Shown here one piece after another: positions 1-18,908 of a stretch of 40,818 bases of DNA. The translations under genes were made by a program, and so were the position numbers. Positions within the stretch are counted from its first letter, which is position 1; the number at the start of each line of letters is the position of its first letter. This stretch comes from Acidobacteriota bacterium (lineage in GTDB: Bacteria; Acidobacteriota; Terriglobia; Terriglobales; Acidobacteriaceae), in contig JAJZDM010000022.1 in the NCBI GenBank assembly GCA_021806005.1, positions 1 to 40,818 of the forward strand, read 5' to 3'. The notes beneath the pieces were generated by a model. The model worked only from the letters and a program-made list of their open reading frames with translations, made no database searches and was not told the origin of the DNA.

Positions 1-8
1 GGCGGAGG

Positions 9-653
9 TCATTTGGTCTCCCCCCCGGCCGGCTCGCCGCTGGCCGGAGCAGCGGCTGCTGCCGCTGCTTTTGCGGCTGCCGCCGCAGCTGCAGCCGCCG
101 CGGCAAGCCTCTGCTTCTCTTTTTCCTTCTCCCGCTCCTGTGCCAGGGCGGCATCGACAGCCGCAGCCTCGATGGGGTGAATCTTGTTGTAATACTCGTT
201 GGACTTGGCCAGCTTGTCCTTGTGGTGGAGCAGGCCGCCGAAACGATCGTCCGAGCTCAACTCGAACTCGACGTCCATCTTGATGGCATCGAAAGGGCAG
301 ACCTCGACGCAAATCTGGCAGCTCATGCAGACGGAGACGTCGATATCGAACCTTACGGGATAGAACTGCAGCTTGCCGACGGCATCAGGCTTCTTGTCTT
401 TGCTCTTTTCGATGTAGATGCATTTGGGAGGGCACTCCTTCTCGCAGATCTGGCAAGAGACGCAGCGCAGGCCCTTCTCCCAGTCGTCGCCGTCATAGAC
501 CAGAAAGGGAAAGTCGCGGGTCCGCTCAATCTGTGGGATGCGCTCCTCAGGATACTGAACCGTAGTCAGGCGCTCTTTATTGACATAGCTTCCGAAGAAG
601 TTGCGCGCCGTCTCGGCAAGGCCTTTGATGATTCCTTCCCCTAGCACAGGCAC
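9..653 (-). CDS. nuoI: NADH-quinone oxidoreductase subunit I (complex I, two 4Fe-4S)
   Basis: NuoI carries clusters N6a and N6b, which pass electrons to NuoB in the peripheral arm of complex I. Two 4Fe-4S motifs are visible: C64, C67, C70, C74 and C109, C112, C115, C119, each of CxxCxxCxxxCP form. The 214-residue chain is longer than many NuoI proteins because of its C-terminus: a charged Glu/Lys helix at about 172-182, then 11 alanines, a lysine and 7 alanines (184-202), then a Pro/Gly/Glu end. The gene follows nuoD by 94 nt on the same strand. nuoE, F, G and H, which usually lie between D and I or just before I, are absent here. The ATG lies at 653 and the TGA at 9-11. Family assignment is secure; the role of the alanine tail is unknown. 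Confidence 0.95.
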   Translation of the reverse strand: MPVLGEGIIKGLAETARNFFGSYVNKERLTTVQYPEERIPQIERTRDFPFLVYDGDDWEKGLRCVSCQICEKECPPKCIYIEKSKDKKPDAVGKLQFYPVRFDIDVSVCMSCQICVEVCPFDAIKMDVEFELSSDDRFGGLLHHKDKLAKSNEYYNKIHPIEAAAVDAALAQEREKEKEKQRLAAAAAAAAAAAKAAAAAAAPASGEPAGGETK

Positions 654-747
654 CCCTCCACACTCTTTGAAGTCTTCATCCGATGGGACAACTCACCAGC
701 CCAACAGCAGCGATCCAGGATGGCTGCGAAGCTTTGCATCTTCAAAC

Positions 748-1908
748 TCAACGGTCTACCTCACCCAAAACGATATCCACGCTACCCAGGATGATGACGA
801 TGTCAGATACATTCTGACCCAGGCACATCTCTTCGAGCAGGGTCAGGTTGATGAGGCTGGGCGGGCGCACCCGGTAGCGGTAGGGATTCGGTCCGCCTTC
901 GCTGATCAGGTAAAAGCCCAGTTCGCCCTTGGGAGCCTCGATCCGTCCATAGGCCTCCCCGGCCTTGGGCCGGAAGTTGCGAAGCTTGGTATTTGGATCC
1001 ACGATGGGGCCGGCGGGCAGATCGCGCATCGCCTGTTTGAGGATCTCGATGGACTCACGCATCTCCAGCAGGCGCATCATGTAGCGATCGTAGACATCGC
1101 CGTGCTCTCCAAGGGGAACCCGGAAGGAGAAGCGGTCATAGATGCTGTACTTGTCGACCTTGCGCAGGTCGTAGTTGACCCCCGAGGCTCTGGCCATCGG
1201 GCCACTGATGCCAGCGGCGATGGCCTGCTGGCGGGTGACGATGCCGACGCCCTGCGTGCGCGCCATCAGGATCTCGTTGGTCCGGAGCAGGCGCTCGAAC
1301 TCGTCCAGGAAGCGCGGGAACCCATCAACAACCTTCCGGGCCTGTTCCATCCAGCCATCGGGAAGATCGCAGCGGCAACCGCCGAAGCGCATGTAGTTGC
1401 ACATCATGCGGGCGCCGGTGAGGGCTTCAAAGAGATCCAGAACCTTCTCCCGCTCGCGGAAGGCGTACATGAGAGGGGTTCCGCTGGCGCCCATATCCTG
1501 CAGGAGGAAGCCGATCAAGCCGGCGTGATTTTGTAGCCGAGTGAGTTCGCCGGTGATGACGCGGAGGTACTCGGCGCGTTCCGGCACCGAAATGCCTGCC
1601 AGTTGCTCCACGGCGAGCGCATAGGCCCAGTTATTGGTGATGGAGCAGATGTAATCGAGGCGATCGGTGTAGGGCATGGAGCCCAGATAGGTCTCGTTCT
1701 CGGCGATCTTCTCGTGATTGCGGTGCAGATAGCCAAAGACCGGCTTGAGTTTGACGACCCGTTCCCCATCCAGCACGATGTTCATGCGGAAGACGCCGTG
1801 TGTGGAAGGATGATGGGGGCCCATGGAGATCTCGAGCAGATCGCCATGGAGATGATCGTTGGCCGGTTTGGAGATCGTGTCGATGGAGGCTTCGGTCAGA
1901 ACGCTCAT
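748..1908 (-). CDS. nuoD: NADH-quinone oxidoreductase subunit D (49-kDa quinone-site subunit)
   Basis: NuoD, homologous to the large subunit of NiFe hydrogenases, forms the quinone pocket of complex I together with NuoB. The 386-residue length is normal for an unfused NuoD. Family signatures seen are MGPHHPSTHGVFR at about 29-41, GYLHRNHEKIAE at 59-70 and the C-terminal VDIVLGEVDR end. The hydrogenase-type cysteines are absent, as expected for NuoD. The ATG at 1906-1908 overlaps the nuoC stop by four bases (ATGA), which indicates translational coupling. It is not fused to nuoC, unlike E. coli NuoCD. Confidence 0.97.
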   Translation of the reverse strand: MSVLTEASIDTISKPANDHLHGDLLEISMGPHHPSTHGVFRMNIVLDGERVVKLKPVFGYLHRNHEKIAENETYLGSMPYTDRLDYICSITNNWAYALAVEQLAGISVPERAEYLRVITGELTRLQNHAGLIGFLLQDMGASGTPLMYAFREREKVLDLFEALTGARMMCNYMRFGGCRCDLPDGWMEQARKVVDGFPRFLDEFERLLRTNEILMARTQGVGIVTRQQAIAAGISGPMARASGVNYDLRKVDKYSIYDRFSFRVPLGEHGDVYDRYMMRLLEMRESIEILKQAMRDLPAGPIVDPNTKLRNFRPKAGEAYGRIEAPKGELGFYLISEGGPNPYRYRVRPPSLINLTLLEEMCLGQNVSDIVIILGSVDIVLGEVDR

Positions 1909-2558
1909 CTTGCTCCCTCTGCTTCGGAAGGTTCTCCCTGCGCCGCATAGTGGGCCTGGGTTCGCTTCAGCACCTCATCATGGGCGGTGGGTTCATACTC
2001 GTAGTCATCGGGATCGACGTAGTCCTTGCGCATGGGGAAGTCAGTAAAGCTGTCCCACATCAGCAGGCGGCGCAGGTCGGGATGGCCGTCAAAGAGAACG
2101 CCGAAGAGGTCATAGACCTCGCGCTCCTGAAAATCCGCGCTGCGCCAGACCGGAGTGAGGGATGGAAGGTGAACCCGCTCTGCGCGGTCCTCGGTGCGCA
2201 TGCGCAGCACCAGTGGGCCCTGGCGATCCTCCAGCGAAAAGAGATGGTAGACCACCTCCAGATAGTTGCCGGTGGTGGTCTTGATTACCTCTTCAACATC
2301 TTTCTCCACGCCATCGACGAGTTTTTTCGTCTTCTGTTTGGTGGAGATCTCCTTGAGGGGCCAATCCACGCCGGTGACATTGGAGCAGTAGTCGAAGCGC
2401 GGGCTGGCACCATCACGAAGAAAGCTGGCTACGGTGAGGGCGTGCTCTTTATCCACCAGCAGCGAATGCTGGCCGGAGGGGCTCCCGTTGGGGAGGATCT
2501 CCAGCGAGCAGCCGGGAACGTTTGCTTCGATTTGGGATTTAATCTCTTCCAGATTCAT
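1905..2558 (-). CDS. nuoC: NADH-quinone oxidoreductase subunit C (30-kDa subunit)
   Basis: NuoC is a peripheral-arm subunit that packs against NuoD and NuoI. The family signature [13 protein letters not shown] followed by [12 protein letters not shown] occupies about 141-167. A lysine/glutamate-rich segment at about 67-97 makes the N-terminal domain longer than in the shortest relatives. I place the start at the ATG at 2556-2558 (217 residues, MNLEEIKSQ...). An in-frame ATG at 2568-2570 would add only MQAR. The open frame extends further upstream but is antisense-like serine/proline-rich sequence inside nuoB and is not credible. The start overlaps the end of nuoB by about 20 nt, and the stop overlaps nuoD by ATGA. 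Confidence 0.93.
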
Positions 2559-3180
2559 TCTTGCCTGCATTCGAGATGTTGACCAGCGGAACCTGCCAGA
2601 TGGCGTCGTTCCGTGTGGGGGTGAGATCGTGCTCGCTGCACTCTGGCACGGTGAACTCGCTGGGCAGTTCTGCCTGGAGGTGGCGGGGGCGATCGGGTCC
2701 GGTGAGCTGCTGCTCGTCAATCTTGCGCTGCAACATCAAAAACGCGTCCAGCAGGGCCTCTGGACGCGGGGGGCAGCCGGGAATGTAGACATCGACAGGG
2801 ATGTAGCGGTCGATGCCCTTGAGCACGTTGTAGCCCTGCTTGAAGGGCCCGCCGGAGATGGCGCATGCTCCCATGGAGATGACGTACTTGGGCTCAGCCA
2901 TCTGGTTGTAGAGCCGCACCACCTGCGGGGCCATCTTCTTGGTGACGGTTCCAGCGACGATCATAAGATCGGCCTGACGTGGCGAGGGGCGGAAGACCTC
3001 CGCCCCGAAGCGAGCCAGATCATAGCGCGCCATAGTGGTTGCGATCATCTCAATGGCACAACAGGCGAGGCCGAAGTTGAGCGGCCAGATGGAGCTCTTG
3101 CGGCCCCAGTTGTAGAGCTCCTGCAGAGTGGTGGCGACTACGCCCTGGCGCCGCAACTCATTCTTTAGCTGTTCATCCAT
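2539..3180 (-). CDS. nuoB: NADH-quinone oxidoreductase subunit B (N2 cluster subunit)
   Basis: NuoB (PSST) holds the terminal cluster N2 that reduces quinone. From the ATG at 3180 (MDEQLKNEL...) the chain is 213 residues. The tandem cysteines in LACCAIEM are C40 and C41, with C106 in MGACAISGG and C136 in PGCPPRPE, which is the full N2 ligand set. The frame could start at 3228 with 16 extra residues; I prefer 3180 because family members begin close to this point and AGAAGG lies upstream. The C-terminus runs about 40 residues beyond the last conserved helix and overlaps the nuoC start. Confidence 0.94.
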
Positions 3181-3311
3181 GCCCTGGAACCTTCTGAAGT
3201 GAGTGTTCGATCGGTTTTGCAGCGCCAAGCCGACGCAGCTTGCAGTTTATTTTGACTAGTCGCATTGCCGGCCCGATGGCCGGTGGATGCCGGCCTGGTA
3301 CTGGCCGCAGG

Positions 3312-3683
3312 TCAACTCCAGGAGAGCACGTTCTTCTGGCAGGCCCAGACGAGCCCTTCCACCAGAAGGATCAGAAACACCAACATGGAGATGGACTGAG
3401 CCATGGTGAAGCCGCCAAACGCAACGGCGAACGGCAGCAGGAAGACAGCCTCCACGTCAAAGATGAGAAAGATGATGGCGTAGATGTAGTAGCCGGGCTT
3501 GAACTTGATCCAGGCATCTCCGTTGGACTCCAGGCCGCACTCGTAGATCGCGTTTTTGGTGGGACCTGATTTTTGCGGAGAGAACTTTTTGGCCCATACC
3601 CAAGCCAGAGCCAAAGGTCCGATGGCAAAACCGGCGCCAGCAATCAACAGCACGATGACGGGAAGGTACATGTGATTCGTCAT
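3312..3683 (-). CDS. nuoA: NADH-quinone oxidoreductase subunit A
   Basis: NuoA is a small membrane subunit of complex I at the junction with the peripheral arm. The 123-residue protein has three predicted membrane helices at about 7-30, 66-89 and 97-116. It has the conserved loop YECG (47-50) and the FDVE motif (75-78) at the second helix, where an acidic residue is functionally important in the family. It is the first gene of the minus-strand run A-B-C-D-I. Unlike the tight B-C-D junctions, a gap of about 130 nt separates it from nuoB. The divergent nifJ-type gene begins 104 nt away, so both are probably controlled from the shared region. Confidence 0.95.
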   Translation of the reverse strand: MTNHMYLPVIVLLIAGAGFAIGPLALAWVWAKKFSPQKSGPTKNAIYECGLESNGDAWIKFKPGYYIYAIIFLIFDVEAVFLLPFAVAFGGFTMAQSISMLVFLILLVEGLVWACQKNVLSWS

Positions 3684-3720
3684 AGCTCACTTCAACTTTA
3701 TCAGAGCCTTCGCAAAACAG

Positions 3721-3736
3721 TGTGACATTGATCACA
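3721..3736. promoter_or_regulatory. CRP/FNR-family operator between nuoA and the PFOR gene
   Basis: The 16-bp palindrome reads TGTGA, CATTGA, TCACA. Both half-sites match the E. coli CRP consensus exactly with the canonical 6-nt spacer. It sits in the 104-nt divergent region between nuoA and the PFOR gene. Toward nuoA, a GATAAA -10-like hexamer (plus 3697-3702) would place the site centre about 39-41 nt upstream of transcription start, close to the class II activator position. The regulator is not in the window. In this phylum it could be a CRP, FNR or Dnr-type protein, so the signal (cAMP, oxygen or redox) cannot be named. Confidence 0.7.
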
Positions 3737-3787
3737 ACAAGACATCTTGCTGCCCTTGAGAATGGTAGCTAAGAAACGGGGGTTACG

Positions 3788-6700
3788 TTGAATTCAGAAC
3801 ATTTAGAGATTGTTGACGGGAATCAGGCAGTGGCCGAAGTGGCTTACCGACTGGCGCAGGTGATCTCCATCTACCCGATCACGCCTTCCTCCACCATGGC
3901 GGAGTGGGCCGATCAGTGGAGGGAGCAAGGCCGCAGAAATCTCTGGGGACAAGTTCCGCTGATCGCCGAGATGCAGAGTGAAGGTGGGGCAGCGGGCGCG
4001 ATGCATGGCGCTCTGCAGGCCGGGTCCCTGAGCACGACGTTCACAGCCTCCCAGGGATTGCTGTTGATGATCCCCAATCTGTTCAAGATCGCCGGAGAGC
4101 TTACGGCGAACGTGATTCATGTAACGGCGCGATCCCTGGCCACGCATGCACTTTCGATCTTTGGCGACCACTCGGACGTGATGGCGTGCCGCTCGACGGG
4201 GTACGCGATGCTGGCCTCCGACTCGGTGCAGGAGGCGGGGGATCTTGCGCTGATTGCGCATCTGTCCACGATTGAGGCGCGGGTTCCGTTTCTGCACTTC
4301 TTTGACGGCTTCCGCACATCGCATGAGATCAACAAGGTCTTTGGCATCAGCGATGAGACGATCCGTGCGCTGCTGGACGAGAAGCTGGTGGATGCTCACC
4401 GGGCGCGGGCTCTGAGTCCGGATCGTCCGATTCTGCGCGGGACGGCGCAGAATCCTGATGTTTTCTTCCAGGCCCGTGAGGCATCGAACGCCTTCTATCT
4501 GGCCTGTCCGGAGATCGTACAGAGAAGGATGGACGACTTCGCCCGGCTGACGGGCCGATCCTACCATCTATTCGATTATCTTGGGGACCCCGAGGCGGAT
4601 CGGGTGATTGTGATGATGGGCTCTGGAGCGGGCGCGGCCGAGGAGGCCATCCTTCATCTGAATGCGCGAGGAGAGAAGCTCGGTCTGCTGAAGGTTCGTC
4701 TATACCGTCCGTTTGCCACGGAGGCATTTCTGAAGGCGCTTCCCAGCACGGTCCGGGCGATTGCGGTGCTGGACCGGACCAAGGAGCCGGGCGCGATCGG
4801 TGAGCCGCTCTACCAGGACGTGGTGACGGCGATCGGCGAGAGCATGCAGGCTGCAAGTCCGCGCTTTGGGCGGATTCCAAAGGTGATCGGGGGCCGATAT
4901 GGCCTCTCCTCCAAGGAGTTCACTCCGGCGATGGTGAAGGCGATCTTCGAGGAACTATGGAATCCGCAGCCGAAGAATCACTTCACGATCGGCATTCACG
5001 ACGATGTGACGCACACCAGTCTGGAGTACGACCCGAGCTTCTGCACGGAGGATCCACGCACCTTCCGCGCGTTGTTCTACGGCCTTGGATCGGATGGTAC
5101 GGTGGGTGCGAACAAGAACTCGATCAAGATTATCGGGCACGAGACGGCGAACGATGTTCAGGGCTACTTTGTCTATGACTCCAAGAAGTCGGGCTCGATG
5201 ACCACCTCTCATCTGCGTTTCGGACCGGCTCCGATCCGGTCCACCTACCTGATCACGCAGGCGAACTTTGTGGCGTGCCACAGCTTTCCCTTTCTGGAGC
5301 GGATGGACATTCTCTCCGCAGCAGCTCCAGGCGCGGTGTTTCTGTTGAATGCACCCTATGGGCCGGACGAGGTGTGGGCACATCTACCGCGCAAGGTGCA
5401 GGAGACGATCCTGGAGCGGCGGCTGGATTTTTATGTGATCGACGCCTATCGCGTGGCGCGCGAGACAGGGATGGGAAGCCGCATCAACACCGTGATGCAG
5501 GTCTGCTTCTTTGCCATCAGTGGTGTTCTTCCGATTGCAGACGCGGTTGAGCAGATCAAGAAGGCGATTCTGGAGACCTACGGCAAGCGCGGCAATGTGG
5601 TGCAGAAGAACTATGCCGCGGTGGACGCGGCGCTGGCGCATCTGGGTCGAGTGAAGGTGCCGGAGAGGGTGACGGCGACGTTTGATGTTCTGCCTATCTT
5701 TCCGTCAGCAGCTCCGAAGTTTGTCTCAACGGTGCTGGGCGAGATGGCGGCAGGCCGCGGCGATCTGCTGCCGGTAAGCGCACTGCCCCCGGATGGAACC
5801 TTCCCGACGGCGACCACGCAGTGGGAGAAGCGGAATATTGCGCAGACGATCCCGGTATGGGATGAGGAGCTTTGCATTCAGTGCGGGAAGTGCGTTCTGG
5901 TATGTCCGCACGCCGCGATCCGCGCCAAGGTCTTTGACAGCGCTCTGCTGGCCGATGCTCCAGGGAGCTTCAAGACCGCGAAGCCGAAGTGGCGCGGGAT
6001 GGAGGATAAGCTCTACAGCCTGCAGGTTGCGCCGGAGGACTGTACCGGGTGCCAGCTCTGCATGGAGACCTGTCCGGTGGTAAGCAAGGCGGAGCCCCAG
6101 AGCGACAAGGGTGAGGCGAGGCGCAAGGCGCTGAACATGGAGTTGCAGGAGCCCCTGCGGGTCTCGGAGGCTGAGAACTGGAGGTTCTTCGAGGGCCTCA
6201 CCACGGTGAACCGCGCAGCACTGTCGCACAACCAGGTGAAGGATATTCAACTGCTGGAGCCTCTGTTTGAGTTCTCGGGCGCCTGTGCCGGTTGCGGAGA
6301 AACGCCTTATATCAAACTGCTGACGCAGTTGTTTGGCGACCGGTTGTATATCGCCAACGCCACGGGCTGTTCCTCGATCTATGGCGGCAGCCTGCCCACG
6401 ACGCCGTACACGGTGAACTCCAGCGGACGAGGGCCCACGTGGTCCAACTCATTGTTTGAGGACAATGCGGAGTTTGGACTGGGAATTCGCCTGGCGCTGG
6501 ACCAGCAGAAGGATCAGGCGGAGGCGCTTGTGCAGCAACTGGCGGCGACGATCGGGGAAGAGCTGGTGGAGGCGACGCTAAGCGCTGATCAGTCTGCGGA
6601 ACCTGGGATTGAGCAGCAGAGAGAGCGGGTGAGGCAGATCCGCGATCGGCTTGCCGGAGTGGATACGCCGGAGGCGCGGCAGTTGCGGAGCCTGGCCGAT

Positions 6701-7435
6701 TCGCTGGTGCGCAAGAGCGTATGGCTTGTGGGAGGGGACGGCTGGGCCTACGATATTGGCTTTGGAGGCGTGGACCATGTTCTTGGCTCGGGGAAGAACG
6801 TCAAGATCCTGGTGCTGGACACGGAGACGTACTCTAACACGGGCGGGCAGATGTCGAAGTCAACACCACGAGGGGCTGTAGCCAAGTTTGCTTCGGGAGG
6901 GAAGTTGACGGGGAAGAAGGACCTGGCGATGGAGGCGGTGAGCTACGGCTCAGTCTATGTGGCCAGGGTAGCCATGGGAGGCAGCGACGTACAGACGGTG
7001 AAGGCGTTCCAGGAGGCGGAAGCTTATGACGGGCCCGCTCTGATAATCGCCTACAGCCAATGTATCGCCCACGGCTTTGATCTTGCTCAGGGGATGGATC
7101 AGCAGAAGAATGCCGTGCTCTCGGGGTACTGGCCGCTGGTGCGTTATGACCCGAGGCTGCCGGAGCAGGGGAAGAATCCTTTCCAGCTTGACTCCAGGCC
7201 GCCCTCGATAGCTTTGAAGGATTACTGCTATAAAGAGGCGCGTTACACGATGCTTCAGCGCAGTCATCCGGAGGTTGCCGAGCAGCTTCTGGAAGAGGCG
7301 GAGGACGACGTGCAGCGGAAGTGGCGCCTGTACTCGGAGTATGCATCCGGGCACAGTGTGCTTCCCGGCAACGCTCCCTCCGCTGAGGCCGGCTCCGTTG
7401 CAGCGGCGGCAGCGCTGGCCGGGCCCAAAGGATGA
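3788..7435 (+). CDS. nifJ: Pyruvate:ferredoxin (flavodoxin) oxidoreductase, single-chain
   Basis: This enzyme reversibly oxidises pyruvate and CoA to acetyl-CoA and CO2, reducing ferredoxin or flavodoxin in the cytoplasm. At 1215 residues it matches the homodimeric PFOR class. The pyrimidine-binding domain starts with YPITPSS at about 29-35. Two 4Fe-4S motifs follow: C696, C699, C702, C706 and C752, C755, C758, C762. The proximal cluster ligands are C833, C836, C861 and C1092. The TPP-binding stretch GDGWAYDIGFGG starts near 984. The start must be the TTG at 3788: an in-frame TAA at 3770 excludes longer forms, and the N-terminus then aligns with the family. A GGGGG run lies upstream. Pyruvate is the best substrate guess. 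Confidence 0.95.
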   Translation: MNSEHLEIVDGNQAVAEVAYRLAQVISIYPITPSSTMAEWADQWREQGRRNLWGQVPLIAEMQSEGGAAGAMHGALQAGSLSTTFTASQGLLLMIPNLFKIAGELTANVIHVTARSLATHALSIFGDHSDVMACRSTGYAMLASDSVQEAGDLALIAHLSTIEARVPFLHFFDGFRTSHEINKVFGISDETIRALLDEKLVDAHRARALSPDRPILRGTAQNPDVFFQAREASNAFYLACPEIVQRRMDDFARLTGRSYHLFDYLGDPEADRVIVMMGSGAGAAEEAILHLNARGEKLGLLKVRLYRPFATEAFLKALPSTVRAIAVLDRTKEPGAIGEPLYQDVVTAIGESMQAASPRFGRIPKVIGGRYGLSSKEFTPAMVKAIFEELWNPQPKNHFTIGIHDDVTHTSLEYDPSFCTEDPRTFRALFYGLGSDGTVGANKNSIKIIGHETANDVQGYFVYDSKKSGSMTTSHLRFGPAPIRSTYLITQANFVACHSFPFLERMDILSAAAPGAVFLLNAPYGPDEVWAHLPRKVQETILERRLDFYVIDAYRVARETGMGSRINTVMQVCFFAISGVLPIADAVEQIKKAILETYGKRGNVVQKNYAAVDAALAHLGRVKVPERVTATFDVLPIFPSAAPKFVSTVLGEMAAGRGDLLPVSALPPDGTFPTATTQWEKRNIAQTIPVWDEELCIQCGKCVLVCPHAAIRAKVFDSALLADAPGSFKTAKPKWRGMEDKLYSLQVAPEDCTGCQLCMETCPVVSKAEPQSDKGEARRKALNMELQEPLRVSEAENWRFFEGLTTVNRAALSHNQVKDIQLLEPLFEFSGACAGCGETPYIKLLTQLFGDRLYIANATGCSSIYGGSLPTTPYTVNSSGRGPTWSNSLFEDNAEFGLGIRLALDQQKDQAEALVQQLAATIGEELVEATLSADQSAEPGIEQQRERVRQIRDRLAGVDTPEARQLRSLADSLVRKSVWLVGGDGWAYDIGFGGVDHVLGSGKNVKILVLDTETYSNTGGQMSKSTPRGAVAKFASGGKLTGKKDLAMEAVSYGSVYVARVAMGGSDVQTVKAFQEAEAYDGPALIIAYSQCIAHGFDLAQGMDQQKNAVLSGYWPLVRYDPRLPEQGKNPFQLDSRPPSIALKDYCYKEARYTMLQRSHPEVAEQLLEEAEDDVQRKWRLYSEYASGHSVLPGNAPSAEAGSVAAAAALAGPKG

Positions 7436-7781
7436 TAATCGCACCGCGAATCCCCGCTCCGGATCACCGCGAAGGCGGATCGAGGGATGGCCTCGTGAAC
7501 CATCGCAAAAGTGGCGTGGAGCGGGGAGATTTGCTGGTTCGAAGGATTGAAAACAGAAGACGGATGGAACCGTTTCCCTTGCAGCACGACTTTTGAATAT
7601 TGGGCATTTCCAACTACACCGAAACGTGCGTCATAGCAAACTATTGTGTCCAGGGCATACAATTCCGGTGGTATAAAACGAGCCGGTTGCTGCAACGGCT
7701 GCGGGAATAAAACGCGAGTTTTCCTGCCCCCTCGACAATCTGCAGAACTCTATCGGCGCACCAAGATGGAAGGATTTATCA
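7436..7781 (+). other. 346-nt intergenic region between PFOR and korA
   Basis: No credible gene is seen on either strand. The first part carries the multi-branch inverted repeat annotated separately (7451-7527). Farther on, AGCCG...CGGCT arms around TTGC/GCAA form a short hairpin near 7681-7701. AT-rich -10-like hexamers occur at 7658-7663 (TACAAT) and 7672-7677 (TATAAA), but no convincing -35 lies at the right distance, so no promoter is assigned. AAGGA precedes the korA ATG. The length suggests korAB has its own promoter and a leader of roughly 100 nt or more. Confidence 0.6.
7451..7527 (+). ncRNA. Candidate structured RNA (multi-branch), downstream of PFOR gene
   Basis: A perfect 10-bp inverted repeat (7451-7460 with 7518-7527, TCCCCGCTCC/GGAGCGGGGA) encloses 57 nt that folds into further hairpins. 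One is 7462-7464 plus 7467-7470 with 7475-7481, having a GAAG loop and a two-base bulge. Another is 7481-7485 with 7491-7495 (CGAGG/CCTCG). A weak one is 7500-7503 with 7511-7514. The element begins 15 nt after the PFOR stop and ends 254 nt before korA. It could be the PFOR 3' end or processing structure, part of a korA leader, or a small RNA. I do not recognise an Rfam family with certainty. Confidence 0.4.
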
Positions 7782-9635
7782 ATGTCTACCACTAATCTTG
7801 AAGTTGAGAGTCTGCCCGCCGCAGACTCGATTGTTCACCCTAAAAAACTGGTGAACGATTTCACCATCCAGGTCGCAACGGTGAACGGATCCGGATCGCA
7901 GTCTGCGAACGGCATTCTTCTCCGCAGCATCTTCCGCATGGGGGTGCCGGTCTCTGGAAAGAACCTTTTCCCGTCCAACATTGCGGGCCTGCCCACCTGG
8001 TTTCTGATCCGGGCCAACCGCGATGGCTGGGTGGCGCGCAAGAGCCATGTCGACCTGCTGATCGCCATGAACCCGGAGACGGTGCTGGACGATATTCGCA
8101 AGCTACCAGCGGGGGGTGCTGCGATCTATGACGAGATCTTCCCGATAGGGGATCGGCGGGCCGATGTTGTGTACTATCCGGTTCCGTTCGATCAACTGGT
8201 GGCGGCGACCGGCGCGGAGATGAAGGTTCGCAAGCTGATCAAGAACATGGTCTACGTGGGCGTGGCGGCGCAGCTACTCTCCATAGACATGAAGGGGCTT
8301 GAGAGCATCGTTCGCCAGCAGTTCGCCAAAAAGGTGGCGGTGGCGGACTTGAACTGGAAGGCGGTTCAACTGGGCTTCGACTATGCCGCGAGCAAGCTGA
8401 CCAAGCAGGATGGTCTGGTTGTGGAGCCGATGAGCGCCACGCAGGGCAAGATCATCATTGACGGAAATGCGGCCTGCGCGATGGGTGCGATGTTCGCTGG
8501 CGTCACGGTGGTGAGCTGGTATCCGATTACGCCGTCCACGAGCGTGGTGGAAGACCTGATCAAGTACATGAAGAAGTATCGGGTGGAGAAGGACGGCAGG
8601 GCCACCTTTGCGATTGTGCAGGCCGAGGATGAACTGGCGGCGATCGGCATGGTGCTTGGGGCGGGATGGGCAGGAGCACGTTCGATGACGGCCACCTCCG
8701 GACCTGGAATCTCGCTGATGGCGGAGTTTGCGGGGCTGGGATACTTTGCCGAGATTCCTGGCGTGATCTTCGACGTGCAGCGCACGGGGCCTTCGACGGG
8801 GCTACCGACGCGTACGCAGCAGTGCGATATCGCCTTCATCTCCGGCCTTTCGCACGGAGACACCAAGCACGTGATGCTGCTTCCGGGCTCCGTGAAGGAG
8901 TGCTTCGAGCACGGCATTGAGGCTTTTGACCTTGCCGAGATGCTGCAGACTCCGGTCTTTGTGCTCACGGATCTGGACTTCGGCATGAACAACTGGATGT
9001 CCGAACCGTTCGAGTATCCAGAGAACCCGATCAACCGGGGGAAGGTGCTGAACGCGAAGCAGTTGGAGGAACTTGGCGAGTTTGCCCGCTATAAGGACGT
9101 TGACGGCGATGGCATTCCGTATCGGACGCTGCCGGGGACGAATCATCCCAAGGCGGCCTACTTTACGCGTGGCACGGGCAAGAATGAGAAGGCGCTCTAC
9201 TCCGAGAGGCCCGAGGACTATGCGTATAACATGGAGCGCCTGGCCCGCAAGTTCGAGACTGCCAAGACATTGGTTCCCAAGCCGGTGCTGAACGGCACGG
9301 GCAAGGAGAAGATCGGGATTATCGCATTTGGCAGCAGCGATCCGGCGGTGATGGAGAGCCGGGACCAGCTACGGCGCGAGGCCAGGATCGAAACCGATTA
9401 CCTGCGCCTGCGGGCTTATCCATTTACGCAGGAGGTGAGTGACTTTGTGGCTCGCCACGAGACCATCTACGTGGTGGAACAGAACCGCGATGGCCAGATG
9501 CTGAACCTGCTGAAGACGGATCTGGATGCATCCGAGGCTACCAAACTGCACTCGGTTACCTATTTTGCCGGCCTGCCGCTGGAAGCGCGCGTCGTTACCG
9601 AGGCCATTACCACCTATGAAGGAGCAAGGAAGTAA
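7782..9635 (+). CDS. korA: 2-oxoacid:ferredoxin oxidoreductase, gamma-alpha fused subunit
   Basis: This is the alpha subunit of a two-subunit 2-oxoacid:ferredoxin oxidoreductase, of the kind that converts 2-oxoglutarate and CoA to succinyl-CoA with ferredoxin reduction. The 617-residue chain fuses a gamma domain (about 28-205, with GSGSQSANG at 36-44 and the GLPTWF stretch) to the alpha pyrimidine-binding domain (YPITPSTS at about 247-254). The fused order is typical of KorA in aerobes and actinobacteria. There is no ferredoxin domain. AAGGA lies about 10 nt before the ATG. korB follows after 2 nt, so the two are co-translated. Substrate choice among 2-oxoacids is not provable from sequence. 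Confidence 0.92.
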   Translation: MSTTNLEVESLPAADSIVHPKKLVNDFTIQVATVNGSGSQSANGILLRSIFRMGVPVSGKNLFPSNIAGLPTWFLIRANRDGWVARKSHVDLLIAMNPETVLDDIRKLPAGGAAIYDEIFPIGDRRADVVYYPVPFDQLVAATGAEMKVRKLIKNMVYVGVAAQLLSIDMKGLESIVRQQFAKKVAVADLNWKAVQLGFDYAASKLTKQDGLVVEPMSATQGKIIIDGNAACAMGAMFAGVTVVSWYPITPSTSVVEDLIKYMKKYRVEKDGRATFAIVQAEDELAAIGMVLGAGWAGARSMTATSGPGISLMAEFAGLGYFAEIPGVIFDVQRTGPSTGLPTRTQQCDIAFISGLSHGDTKHVMLLPGSVKECFEHGIEAFDLAEMLQTPVFVLTDLDFGMNNWMSEPFEYPENPINRGKVLNAKQLEELGEFARYKDVDGDGIPYRTLPGTNHPKAAYFTRGTGKNEKALYSERPEDYAYNMERLARKFETAKTLVPKPVLNGTGKEKIGIIAFGSSDPAVMESRDQLRREARIETDYLRLRAYPFTQEVSDFVARHETIYVVEQNRDGQMLNLLKTDLDASEATKLHSVTYFAGLPLEARVVTEAITTYEGARK

Positions 9636-9637
9636 AC

Positions 9638-10684
9638 ATGGCGACCTCACCAGTTTCATCCACACCCACGCGGACCAATCAGATTGGCCTCGAGATTCTG
9701 GACTACCGGGGCAGCAAGTCAACGCTTTGCGCCGGATGCGGCCATAATGCCATTTCGGAGCGGCTGGTCGAAGCCTTTTACGAGATGGGCGTTGCGCCGG
9801 AGCAGGTGATGAAGATGAGCGGCATCGGCTGCTCCTCCAAGTCGCCGGCGTACTTCATGTCTCGTTCCTTCAGCTTCAACTCTGTGCACGGACGCATGCC
9901 GTCGGTAGCTACGGGAGCACTGCTGGCCAACAAGACGATGCGGTCGATTGGCATCAGCGGAGACGGAGACACGGCCTCGATCGGACTTGGGCAGTTCATG
10001 CACTTGCTGCGCCGCAACCTGCCCATCATCTACGTTGTCGAGGACAACGGGGTGTATGGGCTTACCAAGGGCCAGTTCTCGGCTACGGCGGATATCGGCT
10101 CAAAGCTGAAGACCGGCGTGGTGAATGATATGCAGCCGATTGACATCTGTGCGCTGGCGATCCAGATGGGCGCAACCTTTGTGGGCCGGTCGTTCTCCGG
10201 TGACAAGAAGCAGCTCTCGACGATGCTGAAGGCGGCGATTGCGCACAAGGGAACCGTTCTGCTGGACATCATCTCCCCTTGTGTCACCTTCAACGACCAC
10301 GAAGGCTCCACGAAGAGCTACAAGTACATGAAGGAGCACGATGAGGCGGTGAACGAAACCGGCTTTATCGCTCCATTTGAAGACATCACGGTGGAGTACG
10401 ATTCCAACACCACGGTGGATGTACAACTGCATGATGGTTCACATCTGCGTCTGCGCAAGCTGCATGAGGATTATGCGCCGACCAACAAGACGGGCGCGAT
10501 CAGCATGCTGACGGAGTCTCATGACAAGGGAGAGGTGCTGACCGGGGTCTTCTATGTGAATCCGGAGGGCATGGATTTTGTCACGCGGCTGAACATGATC
10601 GACGAGCCGCTGGCGATCGCACCCGAGGCTCGGGTGCGTCCCGGACGTGAGGTTCTCGCCGGGCTGATGCAGGAACTCGCGTAG
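9638..10684 (+). CDS. korB: 2-oxoacid:ferredoxin oxidoreductase, beta subunit
   Basis: KorB binds TPP and the single 4Fe-4S cluster and transfers electrons to ferredoxin. In the 348-residue chain the cluster ligands are C31, C34, C65 and a later cysteine, C215 (SPCVTFNDH). The TPP/Mg signature is GDGD at 108-111 with EDNGVYGLTKGQ at 135-146. The ribosome site GGAGCAAGGAAG lies inside the end of korA and the ATG is 2 nt past the korA stop. A strong hairpin follows downstream. The name korB reflects 2-oxoglutarate as the commonest substrate of this fused two-subunit type; branched or aromatic 2-oxoacids remain possible. Confidence 0.92.
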   Translation: MATSPVSSTPTRTNQIGLEILDYRGSKSTLCAGCGHNAISERLVEAFYEMGVAPEQVMKMSGIGCSSKSPAYFMSRSFSFNSVHGRMPSVATGALLANKTMRSIGISGDGDTASIGLGQFMHLLRRNLPIIYVVEDNGVYGLTKGQFSATADIGSKLKTGVVNDMQPIDICALAIQMGATFVGRSFSGDKKQLSTMLKAAIAHKGTVLLDIISPCVTFNDHEGSTKSYKYMKEHDEAVNETGFIAPFEDITVEYDSNTTVDVQLHDGSHLRLRKLHEDYAPTNKTGAISMLTESHDKGEVLTGVFYVNPEGMDFVTRLNMIDEPLAIAPEARVRPGREVLAGLMQELA

Positions 10685-13710: not shown

Positions 13711-15612
13711 TTACTCCTGGTTTTTTGCTGCGTACAGAGGAGCGGAGGGGGTTCTGCGCAGAGCCGCCAGGAACTGGTGGACGGGAAGCGTATTGAGGAC
13801 GTCCGCGGCTTGAAGCCAGGCGCGGCGGAGCTGGACGATGCCGTAAGCCAGATGGTCGAGTTGTGCGGTGGTGTGGGCATCGGTATTGACGACGATCCGG
13901 CAACCGAGCTGCCGGGCCAGACGGAGGTTCAGGTCGTTGAGGTCCGCCCTCGCCGGCTGGGCGTTGTGCTCGACGGCGACGCCTGCCCGTGCACAGGCCT
14001 GCAGCACTGGGGTGAGTTGGAGCTTGTAGGGCTCACGCTCTAGAACCTTTCGCCCGGTGGGATGGCCCAGAATGTGAACGTACGGACTGTGCACCGCCCG
14101 AAGGATCCTTGCGGTCATCTCCTCTTCGGTCTGGTTGAAGCCGGAGTGAACGCTGGCGACGACGATATCCAGCCCGGCGAGTGTCTCGTCGGAGAGATCG
14201 AGTGTGCCGTCCGGGAGGATGTCCACTTCCACGCCGGCGAGGATGCGGAAGGGCGCGGTTGGCCTTGGTATCTCCGGTGCAGGATCGGTGGACGGGGGTT
14301 GGGCGGATGGGGGAGTGCGCAGCAGCCGCTGATAGCGCTCCCATTGCGGTCCGCGGCCGGCGGCGAACTCTTCGGCGAGATCCGTGGAGACCGCACGGAT
14401 GCGGTGCGCATGGGCAAGAGTGCGGGCGTCATCCATGCCGTTGGTCATGGCCAGATTCCGGGAGTGGTCCGTGATGGCGATGTACTCCAGGCCGCGCTCG
14501 ATGGCAGCCTCTGCCATCTCCCGGATGGAGTTGTGACCATCGGACTCGGTGGTATGCATGTGGAGGTCACCGCGGACCGCGGAGCGTTCAATGAGCCTGG
14601 GCAGCGCATGGGCCTCTGCCGCCTCAATCTCGCCGCTGTTTTCACGCAGCTCTGGAGGGATGAAATCGAGACCCAGAGCCTGGTAGATCTCCTGCTCCGT
14701 ACGGGAGGCGACCACCACGTTGTCTTCGAGTCGGAGCAGGGCATATTCGCTGAGCGTCAGGCCGTGCTTGATGGCACGCTGGCGCAGCGCCACATTGTGC
14801 ATTTTTGAGCCGGTGAAGTACTGCAGCGCGGCTCCGTAGCTGGAGCGGGGCAGGAGCCGCACGTCGACCTGGAGATTGTTATCCAGGGTGAAGCTGACCT
14901 TGTTCTGTCCTCTGGCGAGGAGTTTGTGGATTATCGGCAGGGAGGCAACGTGCTGGACAGCAGCGGCGACGACATCCGGTTCGCAGGCTGGTCCGGTGAC
15001 CAGCAGATCGAGATCGCCAACGGTCTCCCGACCGCGGCGCAGGGAACCGGCGGGGGTGATGGTCTCTATGCCCGGGAACCTGGCGATGAACTCGCGGATG
15101 CGCTCAGCGTATCCCTGTGCCACATCCGTCCGGAAGCGCGAAGAGTTCTTGCGATAGTCTTCGATGCCTTTGAGCAGCTTGTCCGTAAACTTCTGCCCCA
15201 TGCGCGGCAGGTGCAGCAGATCGCCGCGCCGGGCCGCATCCTCGAGAGCATCGACCTGTGAGATGCCGAGTGCGGAGTGGACCAGGGCGACGGTCTTTGG
15301 ACCCATTCCGGGTAGCCGGAGCAACTCCAGGATGGAGGGCTTATAACGCTCGAGCAGCTCCTCGCGCAGCGGAAAGGTGCCGGTGGCCACCATGTCACGG
15401 ATGTTGGTAGCCATCCCCTTGCCGATGCCGGGAATGGCGAGCAGAGCCTTGGGATCGGCGTCCTGGGCCGCGAGGGTCTCCAGTTGTGTTGTCTGCTGCT
15501 GGATTGCCTCCGCGGCGCGCCGGTAGGAGCGGATACGAAACGGATCGCCGGCATCGATCTCCAGCAGCGAGGCCGTCTCGTCCAGCAAGCGGGCAAGGGT
15601 GATGTTGTCCAT
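13711..15612 (-). CDS. polX: DNA polymerase/3'-5' exonuclease PolX (family X with PHP domain)
   Basis: This is a gap-filling family X polymerase with a C-terminal PHP nuclease domain, involved in base-excision repair. Helix-hairpin-helix stretches lie at about 59-66 and 100-106. Polymerase metal ligands are D200 and D202 (VGDLDLL) and D250 (VDVRLL). PHP residues are [12 protein letters not shown] (H351, H353), ITDHS (381-384), HILGHPTG and NTDAH near the C-terminus, so both activities look intact. At 633 residues it is longer than the roughly 570-residue Bacillus PolX; most of the excess is a Pro/Ser-rich insertion at about 415-455 inside the PHP domain. The ATG at 15612 has only a weak ribosome site. 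Confidence 0.93.
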
Positions 15613-17249: not shown

Positions 17250-18908
17250 ATGGACAGAGAGTGTTATTCCCTTTCAACGTTACCCGGCACGACGGCGCTA
17301 TTTCGCGACTTCATGGAGACGTCTGCCTCTTCAGAGCCCACACGGCTGCGACGCTGGTATCCAACCGATCCGTTCTCCATGGAGTGGGCGGGTTCATCGC
17401 CTGTACTGGAGGCTGAACAACGGGCCAACCTGGCCGATGCGCTGGCTGAGCAGGCCAGAGGCTTTGCTGCGGGGCCGGAGGCCCTGGCCAACATTGAGAG
17501 CGTGCGCCAGGGAGCGGCTGCCGTGGTCACGGGGCAGCAGGTAACGCTGTTCGGTGGGCCGCTGTTGACGCTATTGAAGGCTGCCACGGCGATTCGCAAG
17601 GCGGAGGATGCTACCCAGGCCAGCGGTCGAAAGCATGTACCCATCTTCTGGATGGCGAGTGAGGACCATGACCTGGCCGAGGCCGACCAGGTGACTTTCC
17701 CGTCCCGGATCGGGGAGCGGCGAACCGTGGAGACGCTGCGGTTGGGCCTGCAGCCGAGCCGCCCGCTTCCCGTTGGAGCGCTGCGGGTCGATGATGGCGG
17801 TGGAGCCGGAGGGGAGAGGCTGGAGTCTGCCCTGGACCGCGCCTGCGAGTTGCTGGGTTGGGCGCCGGTGTGCGATCTGCTGCGCGAGTGCTATGCGCCC
17901 GGAGCGACGATGGCCTCCGCCTTCGGCAGGCTGCTGACGCGGATCTTTGCGGCCCAGGGGCTGGTGGTGATGGATGCCGGTTCACGCCGGTTCCACGCGA
18001 TGGGCGCAGATGTTCTCCGGGCTGCCCTGGAGCGCGCCGATGAGCTGAGGGAGGCGCTGCTGGAGCGTTCGCTGGAGTTGCAGGGCGCCGGATATCATGC
18101 CCAGGTGCTGGTGACCCCGGACCATTCGCTGCTCTTTCTGATGGACAGGGAAAGCGGCGCCCGGCGACCGCTTCTGCGCTCTGCCGAGGGCGGATGGAAG
18201 GCGGGATCAAAGAGCTACACGACCGCGGATCTGCTGGAAGTGCTGGATGCGGAGCCCGAGCGGCTGAGCCCCAACTCTCTGCTGCGGCCGGTGTTTCAGG
18301 ATGCGATTCTGCCGACGGCAGCCTACGTGGGAGGTCCCGCCGAGGTGGCGTACTTTGCCCAGTGCGAGGTGCTGTACCGCAGTATCCCGGGCAGGGTGAC
18401 CCCGGTGCTGCCGAGGCTGATGGCGACACTGGTCGAGCCTTCGATTGCGAGTACGATGGCAGCCCACGAGTTGCAGCTTCCCCAGGTGTTTGAGGCGAAG
18501 ACGGACGCAGAGCTGGCGCAACGCCTGGGCGCGCGCGCCATGCCCATCGAGGGAAAGCGCCGGACGGCCGCGGTGGGTAACGCCCTGGAGGCCGAACTCG
18601 AAGCGCTGACCACGTACATGGCGTCGCTCAACGCCGACCTGGGCCGTGCCGCGACGGTATCTGCCAGCAAGATGCGGTACCAGATGAACCGGCTGCGGCG
18701 CATGGCGGCCAACTTTGAGGTGCAGAGGCAAGCGTCGCTGAACAAGCATGCATTGGCCATCATGATGAACCTGTTCCCGGAGGGGCATCTGCAGGAGAGG
18801 GTGATTGGGGGAGTCTGGTTCCTGGCCCGGCACGGAGAGGAACTGGCCTCACTGCTGGTTCGCCATGCCGCCGGGGAGTGTTCCGGACATCAAGTTGTAT
18901 ACCTGTGA
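17250..18908 (+). CDS. bshC: Putative cysteine ligase BshC (bacillithiol biosynthesis)
   Basis: BshC adds cysteine to glucosaminyl-malate in the last step of bacillithiol synthesis. At 552 residues the size fits the family (about 540). Signatures are the N-terminal YSLSTLPGTTALFRDF, VVTGQQVTLFGGPLLTLLKA at about 92-111, PIFWMASEDHDLAE at about 130-143, SPNSLLRPVFQDAILPTAAYVGGPAEVAYFAQ near 340-370 and a C-terminal coiled-coil helix pair. The ATG at 17250 fits the family N-terminus. The partner genes bshA and bshB are not in the window, as is usual since they are often unlinked. The organism therefore probably uses bacillithiol as its low-molecular-weight thiol. Confidence 0.92.
   Translation: MDRECYSLSTLPGTTALFRDFMETSASSEPTRLRRWYPTDPFSMEWAGSSPVLEAEQRANLADALAEQARGFAAGPEALANIESVRQGAAAVVTGQQVTLFGGPLLTLLKAATAIRKAEDATQASGRKHVPIFWMASEDHDLAEADQVTFPSRIGERRTVETLRLGLQPSRPLPVGALRVDDGGGAGGERLESALDRACELLGWAPVCDLLRECYAPGATMASAFGRLLTRIFAAQGLVVMDAGSRRFHAMGADVLRAALERADELREALLERSLELQGAGYHAQVLVTPDHSLLFLMDRESGARRPLLRSAEGGWKAGSKSYTTADLLEVLDAEPERLSPNSLLRPVFQDAILPTAAYVGGPAEVAYFAQCEVLYRSIPGRVTPVLPRLMATLVEPSIASTMAAHELQLPQVFEAKTDAELAQRLGARAMPIEGKRRTAAVGNALEAELEALTTYMASLNADLGRAATVSASKMRYQMNRLRRMAANFEVQRQASLNKHALAIMMNLFPEGHLQERVIGGVWFLARHGEELASLLVRHAAGECSGHQVVYL

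Follow-up and report, generated by a model that had tools for sequence, protein, structure and literature searches.

Ferredoxin oxidoreductase genes linked to a two-NuoM complex I operon without nuoEFG in Acidobacteriaceae: a candidate locus for ferredoxin respiration

What supplies electrons to a respiratory complex I that is encoded without its NADH-reading part? This question is raised by one end of a 40818-bp stretch of DNA (the window) from an Acidobacteriaceae (Granulicella-type) draft genome (4.16 Mb, 212 contigs, 97% complete), in which genes for complex I (nuo) stand back to back with genes for a pyruvate:ferredoxin oxidoreductase (PFOR) and a 2-oxoacid:ferredoxin oxidoreductase (KOR, encoded by korA and korB). 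We propose that the locus encodes a module for ferredoxin respiration, probably used at low oxygen, in which electrons would pass from PFOR and KOR through ferredoxin to a complex I with two NuoM subunits (2M complex I) and on to quinone, with proton pumping; we give this reading a probability of roughly 0.55.

The minus strand of the window carries nuoA (3312..3683; NF005839, 91 bits, under cut-off) as the first gene of a run that continues with nuoB (2539..3180; NF011394, 351 bits, over cut-off, and alignment), nuoC (1905..2558; TIGR01961, 111 bits for a cut-off of 122, and alignment), nuoD of the 2M complex (748..1908; NCBIfam NuoD models, at most 462 bits; orthologues, 76-94% identical, in 19 others of the 61 genomes searched) and, after a gap of 94 nt, nuoI (9..653; NCBIfam NuoI models, under their cut-offs, with an E. 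coli NuoI alignment and a contig overlap in support). Two starts were picked by alignment: the ATG at 3180 for nuoB, where the longest open reading frame (ORF) begins at 3228, and 2558 for nuoC, where it begins with TTG at 2720. Divergent from this run, on the plus strand, are the gene for a single-chain pyruvate:ferredoxin (flavodoxin) oxidoreductase of 1215 aa (3788..7435; TIGR02176, 1755 bits, cut-off 911), korA for a 2-oxoacid:acceptor oxidoreductase alpha subunit (7782..9635; TIGR03710, 567 bits, cut-off 483) and korB for a 2-oxoacid:ferredoxin oxidoreductase beta subunit (9638..10684; TIGR02177, 205 bits; NF008820, 196 bits). PFOR and KorA pass their curated cut-offs; KorB falls under that of its subfamily (262). 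The substrate of KorAB is probably 2-oxoglutarate. These coordinates bear out what the initial annotation of this DNA had read from the letters, namely nuoA-B-C-D running straight into nuoI with 94 nt between D and I, and a PFOR and a korAB pair divergent from them.

The window is a complete contig (C196), and the break at nuoI is its end. This left end overlaps contig C6 by 334 nt (99.1% identity), and C6 in turn overlaps contig C101 by 337 nt (98.8% identity); the few mismatches in both overlaps suggest that the breaks arose from strain variation. On C6, nuoI is completed and is followed by nuoH, J, K and L and the first part of nuoM1; the rest of nuoM1, nuoM2 and nuoN come on C101, so that the full order is A-B-C-D-I-H-J-K-L-M1-M2-N. 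The initial annotation had counted nuoH among the missing genes, which is ruled out by its presence on C6 in the same run. Its proviso that H, J-N and EFG could lie past the edge of the window proved right for H, J, K, L, both copies of M and N and wrong for nuoE, F and G, none of which is in the run; its claim that this operon has no NuoEFG accordingly survives extension past position 1. The second nuoM had been out of its sight, as had a canonical nuo set elsewhere in the genome.

To place this run we compared loci drawn from one match set and the best 80 of a second search, picked by similarity, so that all fractions of loci given here describe this picked set only. It comprises 87 distinct loci, of which 71 hold nuoA, and the full order occurs in 37 of these 71, the others being cut or rearranged. 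Two loci counted among the 37 (L089 and L123) have a long gap from nuoC to nuoD; in some Verrucomicrobia (L115, L123, L089), about 2 to 9 kb separates the two genes in the 2M operon. Loci L065 and L066 of close relatives, whose NuoD is 94% identical, have the same order unbroken, as does Granulicella sp. L46 (L069). An assembly or binning artefact is unlikely, since the order recurs in genomes not labelled as metagenome-assembled: Granulicella sp. L46 has the same layout, PFOR and KOR included, and Bryocella elongata (L076) the nuo genes only. With the genome's own NuoE, NuoF and NuoG as queries, no match was found in 103 scanned sequences (14 of them duplicates). The operon encodes the Q and P modules of complex I without NuoE, NuoF and NuoG. 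One verrucomicrobial locus (L101:4876-16281) has 2M-type nuoABCD and, after it, another nuoABCD-H-I-J-K-L set that is unlike the first.

Two NuoM in one operon define the 2M family, and the series L-M1-M2-N, assembled here over C6 and C101, lies on a single piece in relatives. In nine aligned rows, NuoL keeps E144, D178, K229, H254, H334, K342 and D400 (numbered as in E. coli). Its lateral helix is lengthened: 13 of the 19 2M rows have 75 residues between anchors (five have no anchor and one has 110), whereas E. coli has 46 and the genome's own canonical NuoL has 51, an excess close to the 26-residue lateral-helix insertion reported for such enzymes in the available text of PMC9040806.

Published models of NuoM have E144 and K234 as an ion pair (PMC9271201, available text), and the two NuoM copies differ at this pair. 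NuoM1 keeps both residues in 46/46 rows. NuoM2 keeps E144, K265 and E407; its position 234 is leucine in 43/43 rows, and position 150 is lysine in the same 43/43, where E. coli and the genome's own canonical NuoM have methionine and NuoM1 has alanine. A lysine is lost from transmembrane helix 7 and one gained in helix 5, in rows spanning two phyla; one row, from an operon of another family (L063, with K234 and M150), was omitted. The pair is therefore not kept in the extra NuoM, a test of our own that is not known as defining for 2M complexes. Because of the moved lysine, NuoM2 may use a rebuilt pair for pumping, or its coupling may differ. In NuoI, the alignment with E. coli places both CxxCxxCxxxCP motifs for [4Fe-4S] clusters, and this subunit is presumably where electrons enter. 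Its C-terminal tail is long and rich in Ala, Lys and Glu in both phyla (window, L069, L104, L118, L140), and might help ferredoxin to dock.

Adjacency of ferredoxin oxidoreductases and the 2M operon extends well beyond the window. Among the 57 loci that could be judged (a match above 50% identity, or no less than 3 kb in view upstream), PFOR or KOR adjoins nuoA in 29, all of them acidobacterial by title or kinship; by phylum the counts are 29/37 acidobacterial and 0/20 verrucomicrobial loci, which leaves 28 without such a neighbour (8 and 20, respectively). That PFOR and KOR stay beside nuo in relatives, as the initial annotation had proposed to check, is confirmed in this way for Acidobacteria. 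Verrucomicrobial loci L106 and L109 do have distant relatives nearby, a korA-like gene (29%) and a PFOR-like gene (32%).

The 29 loci show four arrangements. Divergent PFOR is found in 22, of which 15 show korA or korAB beyond it; in the other seven, L079 and L093 have no KOR across the 8 kb in view and five are cut early. Divergent korAB alone occurs in five loci, co-directional korAB in one (L104), and a co-directional korA-korB-PFOR-DHO_dh series leading into nuoA in one (L128). The dihydroorotate-dehydrogenase-like gene (PF01180) of this last series lies between PFOR and nuoA (L128:6986-8002), and in L078 such a gene lies between PFOR and korA (3320-4591); its ORF family is common to nine loci. 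An acyl-CoA-dehydrogenase-like gene accompanies korAB in three KOR-only loci (L104:2940-4133, L062:3688-4881, L137:3606-4931; identified by Pfam in L104 and by clustering in the other two), and its product may be a further electron source.

On a quick NuoD tree, the five arrangement states need seven changes and adjacency alone three (54 rows; three loci have no row). Genes past korB differ among most loci, and are common only to the window and L067, to L048, L068 and L070, and to L062 and L137. PFOR and KorA give distances that track those of NuoL (Mantel r of 0.74 and 0.89, 15 loci each) and, less closely, those of NuoD (0.48 with 18 loci and 0.57 with 19), with 0/2000 permutations as high in every comparison; the block was therefore mostly inherited as a unit. 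Repeated transfer between Verrucomicrobiota and Acidobacteriota is not supported, because one branch of the NuoD tree splits the phyla (one change, support 93, 35 + 35 rows, seven rows in no group). A single old transfer between them is not excluded.

Co-occurrence by genome was followed in a genus set of 28 genomes, our own included, and in 33 genomes outside the genus, 61 in all; these genomes are related, and the counts are uncorrected for kinship. NuoD of the 2M type (at least 76% identity, the next matches being at 50%) is present in 19/28 genus-set genomes. PFOR accompanies it in 13 of the 19 and is found in none of the nine genomes without this NuoD; KorA (at least 66%) is found in 16/19 and 1/9, the exception being a genome that is 67% complete (G010). 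The korA gene is in pieces in G007 (C1:1476221-1478067, two pieces) and in G012, where the PFOR gene (C221, L072) also has one stop; either decay or sequencing error may be the cause. In G004, korAB adjoins nuo and PFOR lies elsewhere.

Of special interest is the region shared by the nuoA and PFOR promoters, which contains an exact Crp/Fnr-type palindrome, TGTGA-N6-TCACA (3721..3736); a sigma-70 promoter scan of 3500-3950 found none. TGTGA-N6-TCACA is the target of Bacillus Fnr, although the site is not printed in PMC3520743. In the window alone, 0.86 matches with at most one mismatch are expected by chance. Across loci, at least 9/10 half-site letters are present in 22/22 divergent PFOR-nuoA loci, and column conservation is 95% in the half-sites, 52% in the spacer and 49% in the flanks, figures for positions that were chosen as the best-scoring ones (a choice with some bias towards the site) in loci that are related. 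One locus with korAB only (L067) also has 9/10 letters, and 3/38 loci without a PFOR or KOR neighbour reach nine.

In the whole genome, the pattern TGTGM-N6-TCACA has 18 places, the window's included, with 33 strand hits compared with five strand hits for the backward control. We listed the ORFs around all 18 places and ran Pfam on ten of these ORFs. One site lies 31 bp upstream of the ORF for the E1 component of 2-oxoglutarate dehydrogenase (OGDH) on C166, where a Crp/Fnr regulator gene lies upstream of the OGDH E1 gene with TGTGA-N6-TCACA between the two (L154:1270-5272). Others lie upstream of citrate synthase (C193, with a fumarase-like ORF, recognized by eye, on the other side), upstream of the small subunit of a [NiFe] hydrogenase (C76) and, at a distance of about 600 bp, by an NrfD/4Fe-4S pair (C22). 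Two more are associated with Crp/Fnr regulators that have N-terminal cysteines (C193, C208), either ahead of the gene or where it starts. The remaining 11 places have no telling neighbour, are inside ORFs or have a neighbour that was not identified; the one on C95 precedes an ORF with CxxCH motifs (by eye). The genome has eight Crp/Fnr family matches, five of which were read (C186, C39 and C142 were left out), and three of the five (C193, C208, C166) combine N-terminal cysteine clusters with a RETxxR helix, which presumably fits TGTGA, going by the recognition residues of Crp. We infer that these cysteine-bearing regulators sense oxygen.

The genome also encodes the conventional counterparts of this locus. 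The initial annotation had suggested looking for nuoEFG elsewhere, and they are present on contig C144 within a second, canonical set (looked at there for nuoC, D, E, F, G, H and L, M, N, all present), which holds the sole NuoF of the genome. NuoD of the 2M complex and that of the canonical complex are 44-48% identical across their aligned parts. A hydrogenase-4-like set lies on C57, and a second KorAB pair, whose KorA is 31% identical to that of the window, on C63 (44210-47175, L152). As E1 components of both pyruvate dehydrogenase (PDH) and OGDH are encoded, PFOR and KOR form an alternative route, and their being the sole route from pyruvate and 2-oxoglutarate is ruled out.

Taken together, these observations suggest how the locus may work. 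PFOR and KorAB would oxidise pyruvate and, probably, 2-oxoglutarate, with the electrons going to ferredoxin rather than to NAD+. The 2M complex I, having no NADH module of its own, would accept them at the exposed clusters of NuoI, NuoB would pass them on to menaquinone, and the four antiporter-like subunits (L, M1, M2, N) would pump protons. Menaquinone is the quinone of Acidobacteria, and the drop in potential from ferredoxin to menaquinone is larger than that from NADH to menaquinone. This larger drop would pay for the extra pump. A single Crp/Fnr factor, bound to the one palindrome between nuoA and PFOR, would control both transcripts together. The counterpart route would be PDH, OGDH and the canonical NADH complex I. 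Use at low oxygen, which the initial annotation had put forward, draws on the Crp/Fnr-type palindrome found in 22/22 shared promoter regions and is less well served by expression data from Acidobacterium capsulatum, which are mixed: according to the available text of PMC11636273, nuoABC of its 2M set and por transcripts are up at low O2.

Several observations weigh against ferredoxin respiration. In the same source, the 2M set of A. capsulatum is said to have 'similar expression patterns' to the canonical set, whose nuoE-N fall; aceEF rises along with por; and the enzyme is named an NADH dehydrogenase, the word 'ferredoxin' occurring 0 times in the main text as available. The locus has no ferredoxin gene, and the ferredoxin-like genes found elsewhere in the genome (C82, C143, C145) are all under the curated cut-off. 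Three genomes that are 94-100% complete (G009, G015, G025) have the 2M complex and neither PFOR nor this KorA; together with the 0/20 adjacency in Verrucomicrobia, they imply that the complex must be able to accept another donor. Conversely, KorA matches of at least 45% occur in 31/33 genomes outside the genus, where 2M NuoD is found only in G035, so that KOR does not need the 2M complex; at least one of these KOR genomes, G053, has another nuo set without E, F or G matches (L063). PFOR and KOR lie on contigs other than that of nuo in G016 and G027. As for the palindrome, the other five of six KOR-only loci and L128 have at most 8/10 letters upstream of nuoA, and only 7/18 places in the genome, the window's included, are tied to energy metabolism or a regulator.

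A fuller version of this reading gives aerobic soil Acidobacteria a second route of respiration that is complete and co-regulated. At low oxygen, PFOR/KOR, ferredoxin and the complex I with four pumps would replace PDH/OGDH, NADH and the canonical complex I, NuoM2 being a rebuilt pump (the lysine partner of the coupling glutamate having moved from helix 7 to helix 5) with a stoichiometry or coupling unlike that of any studied complex I. We advance this version tentatively and hold it to be clearly less probable than ferredoxin respiration as such.

Among other explanations, the one that survives best, unlikely as we consider it, is use in reverse: the proton-motive force would drive electron flow from quinol onto ferredoxin, with PFOR and KOR serving as pyruvate and 2-oxoglutarate synthases in anaplerotic CO2 fixation. 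Both enzymes are reversible. Such a direction has been proposed for the 2M complex of Nitrospira (PMC6606698, PMC12342949, available text), and acidobacterial korAB and por are read as carboxylating in the accessible part of a comparative paper (PMC5900883). The oxidative cycle is, however, represented in the genome by citrate synthase and by OGDH E1, both with the same type of operator, and that operator type, with part of the A. capsulatum expression (PMC11636273, available text), suggests low O2, where proton-motive force would presumably be scarce. A search for ATP-citrate lyase gave no match, but its control was also silent everywhere, so that it is uninformative on a reverse tricarboxylic acid cycle.

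Somewhat more doubtful is an NADH-fed enzyme, in which the 2M complex would borrow the canonical NuoEFG. The set on C144 could supply these subunits, a stand-alone NuoF has been suggested as partner of the 2M complex in Nitrospira moscoviensis (PMC6606698, available text), and the name NADH dehydrogenase used for A. capsulatum fits such a scheme. Against it are the low identity of the two NuoD over their aligned parts, the 0/103 scanned sequences with E, F or G beside the 2M set, and the genes that are linked to it, which encode ferredoxin enzymes instead. The least probable explanation is that the order is an accident of lineage, passed down within one family, PFOR/KOR and the 2M complex exchanging no electrons: the distances that track NuoL well and NuoD less well, as in vertical inheritance of a block, and the mere three changes in adjacency agree with it, but the genes stayed together while order and orientation changed seven times and most flanking genes past korB differ, one conserved palindrome is common to both sides, and genus-set genomes without the 2M complex lack PFOR and KOR, with one incomplete exception.

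The remainder of the scanned window is ordinary, with for example a PolX-type polymerase (13711-15612) and two AMP-binding enzymes; a gene for BshC of bacillithiol synthesis lies at 17250-18908.

If ferredoxin respiration is the right reading, common soil bacteria with PDH, OGDH and an NADH complex I also keep a ferredoxin-based respiration. The locus offers a testable candidate, in a soil bacterium, for what feeds a complex I without the NADH-reading part, a donor being suggested by linkage and a shared palindrome in a family with cultured strains. The lysine swap of NuoM2 is a natural variant of a residue pair that is central to models of proton pumping (PMC9271201, available text).

Parts of this picture are already in print: the 2M complex I, which is known from this family too; the EFG-less complex I; and the proposal that PFOR is the donor of the latter. 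The literature searched, which did not include Chadwick et al. (2018), where the swap may be noted, yielded no mention of PFOR/KOR-2M linkage in any of its four arrangements, of the palindrome common to nuoA and PFOR, or of the lysine swap in NuoM2; this negative is not proof of novelty. As described by Chadwick et al. (2018), cited here through later papers, 2M complexes share the second NuoM and the lengthened lateral helix of NuoL, and some lineages lack the NADH-module subunits; the available text of these citing papers describes them for Nitrospira, Chloroflexi and A. capsulatum. Nitrospira of clade 3 lacks E, F and H and keeps an enlarged nuoG (PMC6606698, available text), whereas here nuoH is kept and nuoG has no match. 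The A. capsulatum enzyme (PMC11636273) belongs to the same family and is likewise a second complex I with duplicated nuoM; it differs in its label of NADH dehydrogenase, and its gene neighbourhood is not stated in the text available. The EFG-less complex I published for a strict anaerobe is similar in having no NuoEFG, PFOR and ferredoxin as proposed donors and menaquinol as product, and differs, in the part of the source available, in its one NuoM and in a donor proposed from co-expression rather than linkage.

A parallel outside the phylum is the second cluster of the phototroph Chloroflexus aurantiacus (PMC3150298, available text), which has two nuoM and no nuoG beside a complete 14-gene set, in a genome that likewise has pairs of PDH/PFOR and KDH/KFOR; there, however, korAB and por are at other loci by their locus tags, and nuoE and nuoF are still assigned. 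Complex_I_3 of Candidatus Manganitrophaceae (PMC9040806, available text) shares extra pumping subunits and the 26-residue lateral-helix insertion, but has five pumping subunits, an MrpD-like protein in place of NuoL and a proposed reverse running for autotrophy. Set beside the 2M complexes as described in the texts available, the one encoded here differs in its linkage to ferredoxin oxidoreductases and in the palindrome that it shares with them.

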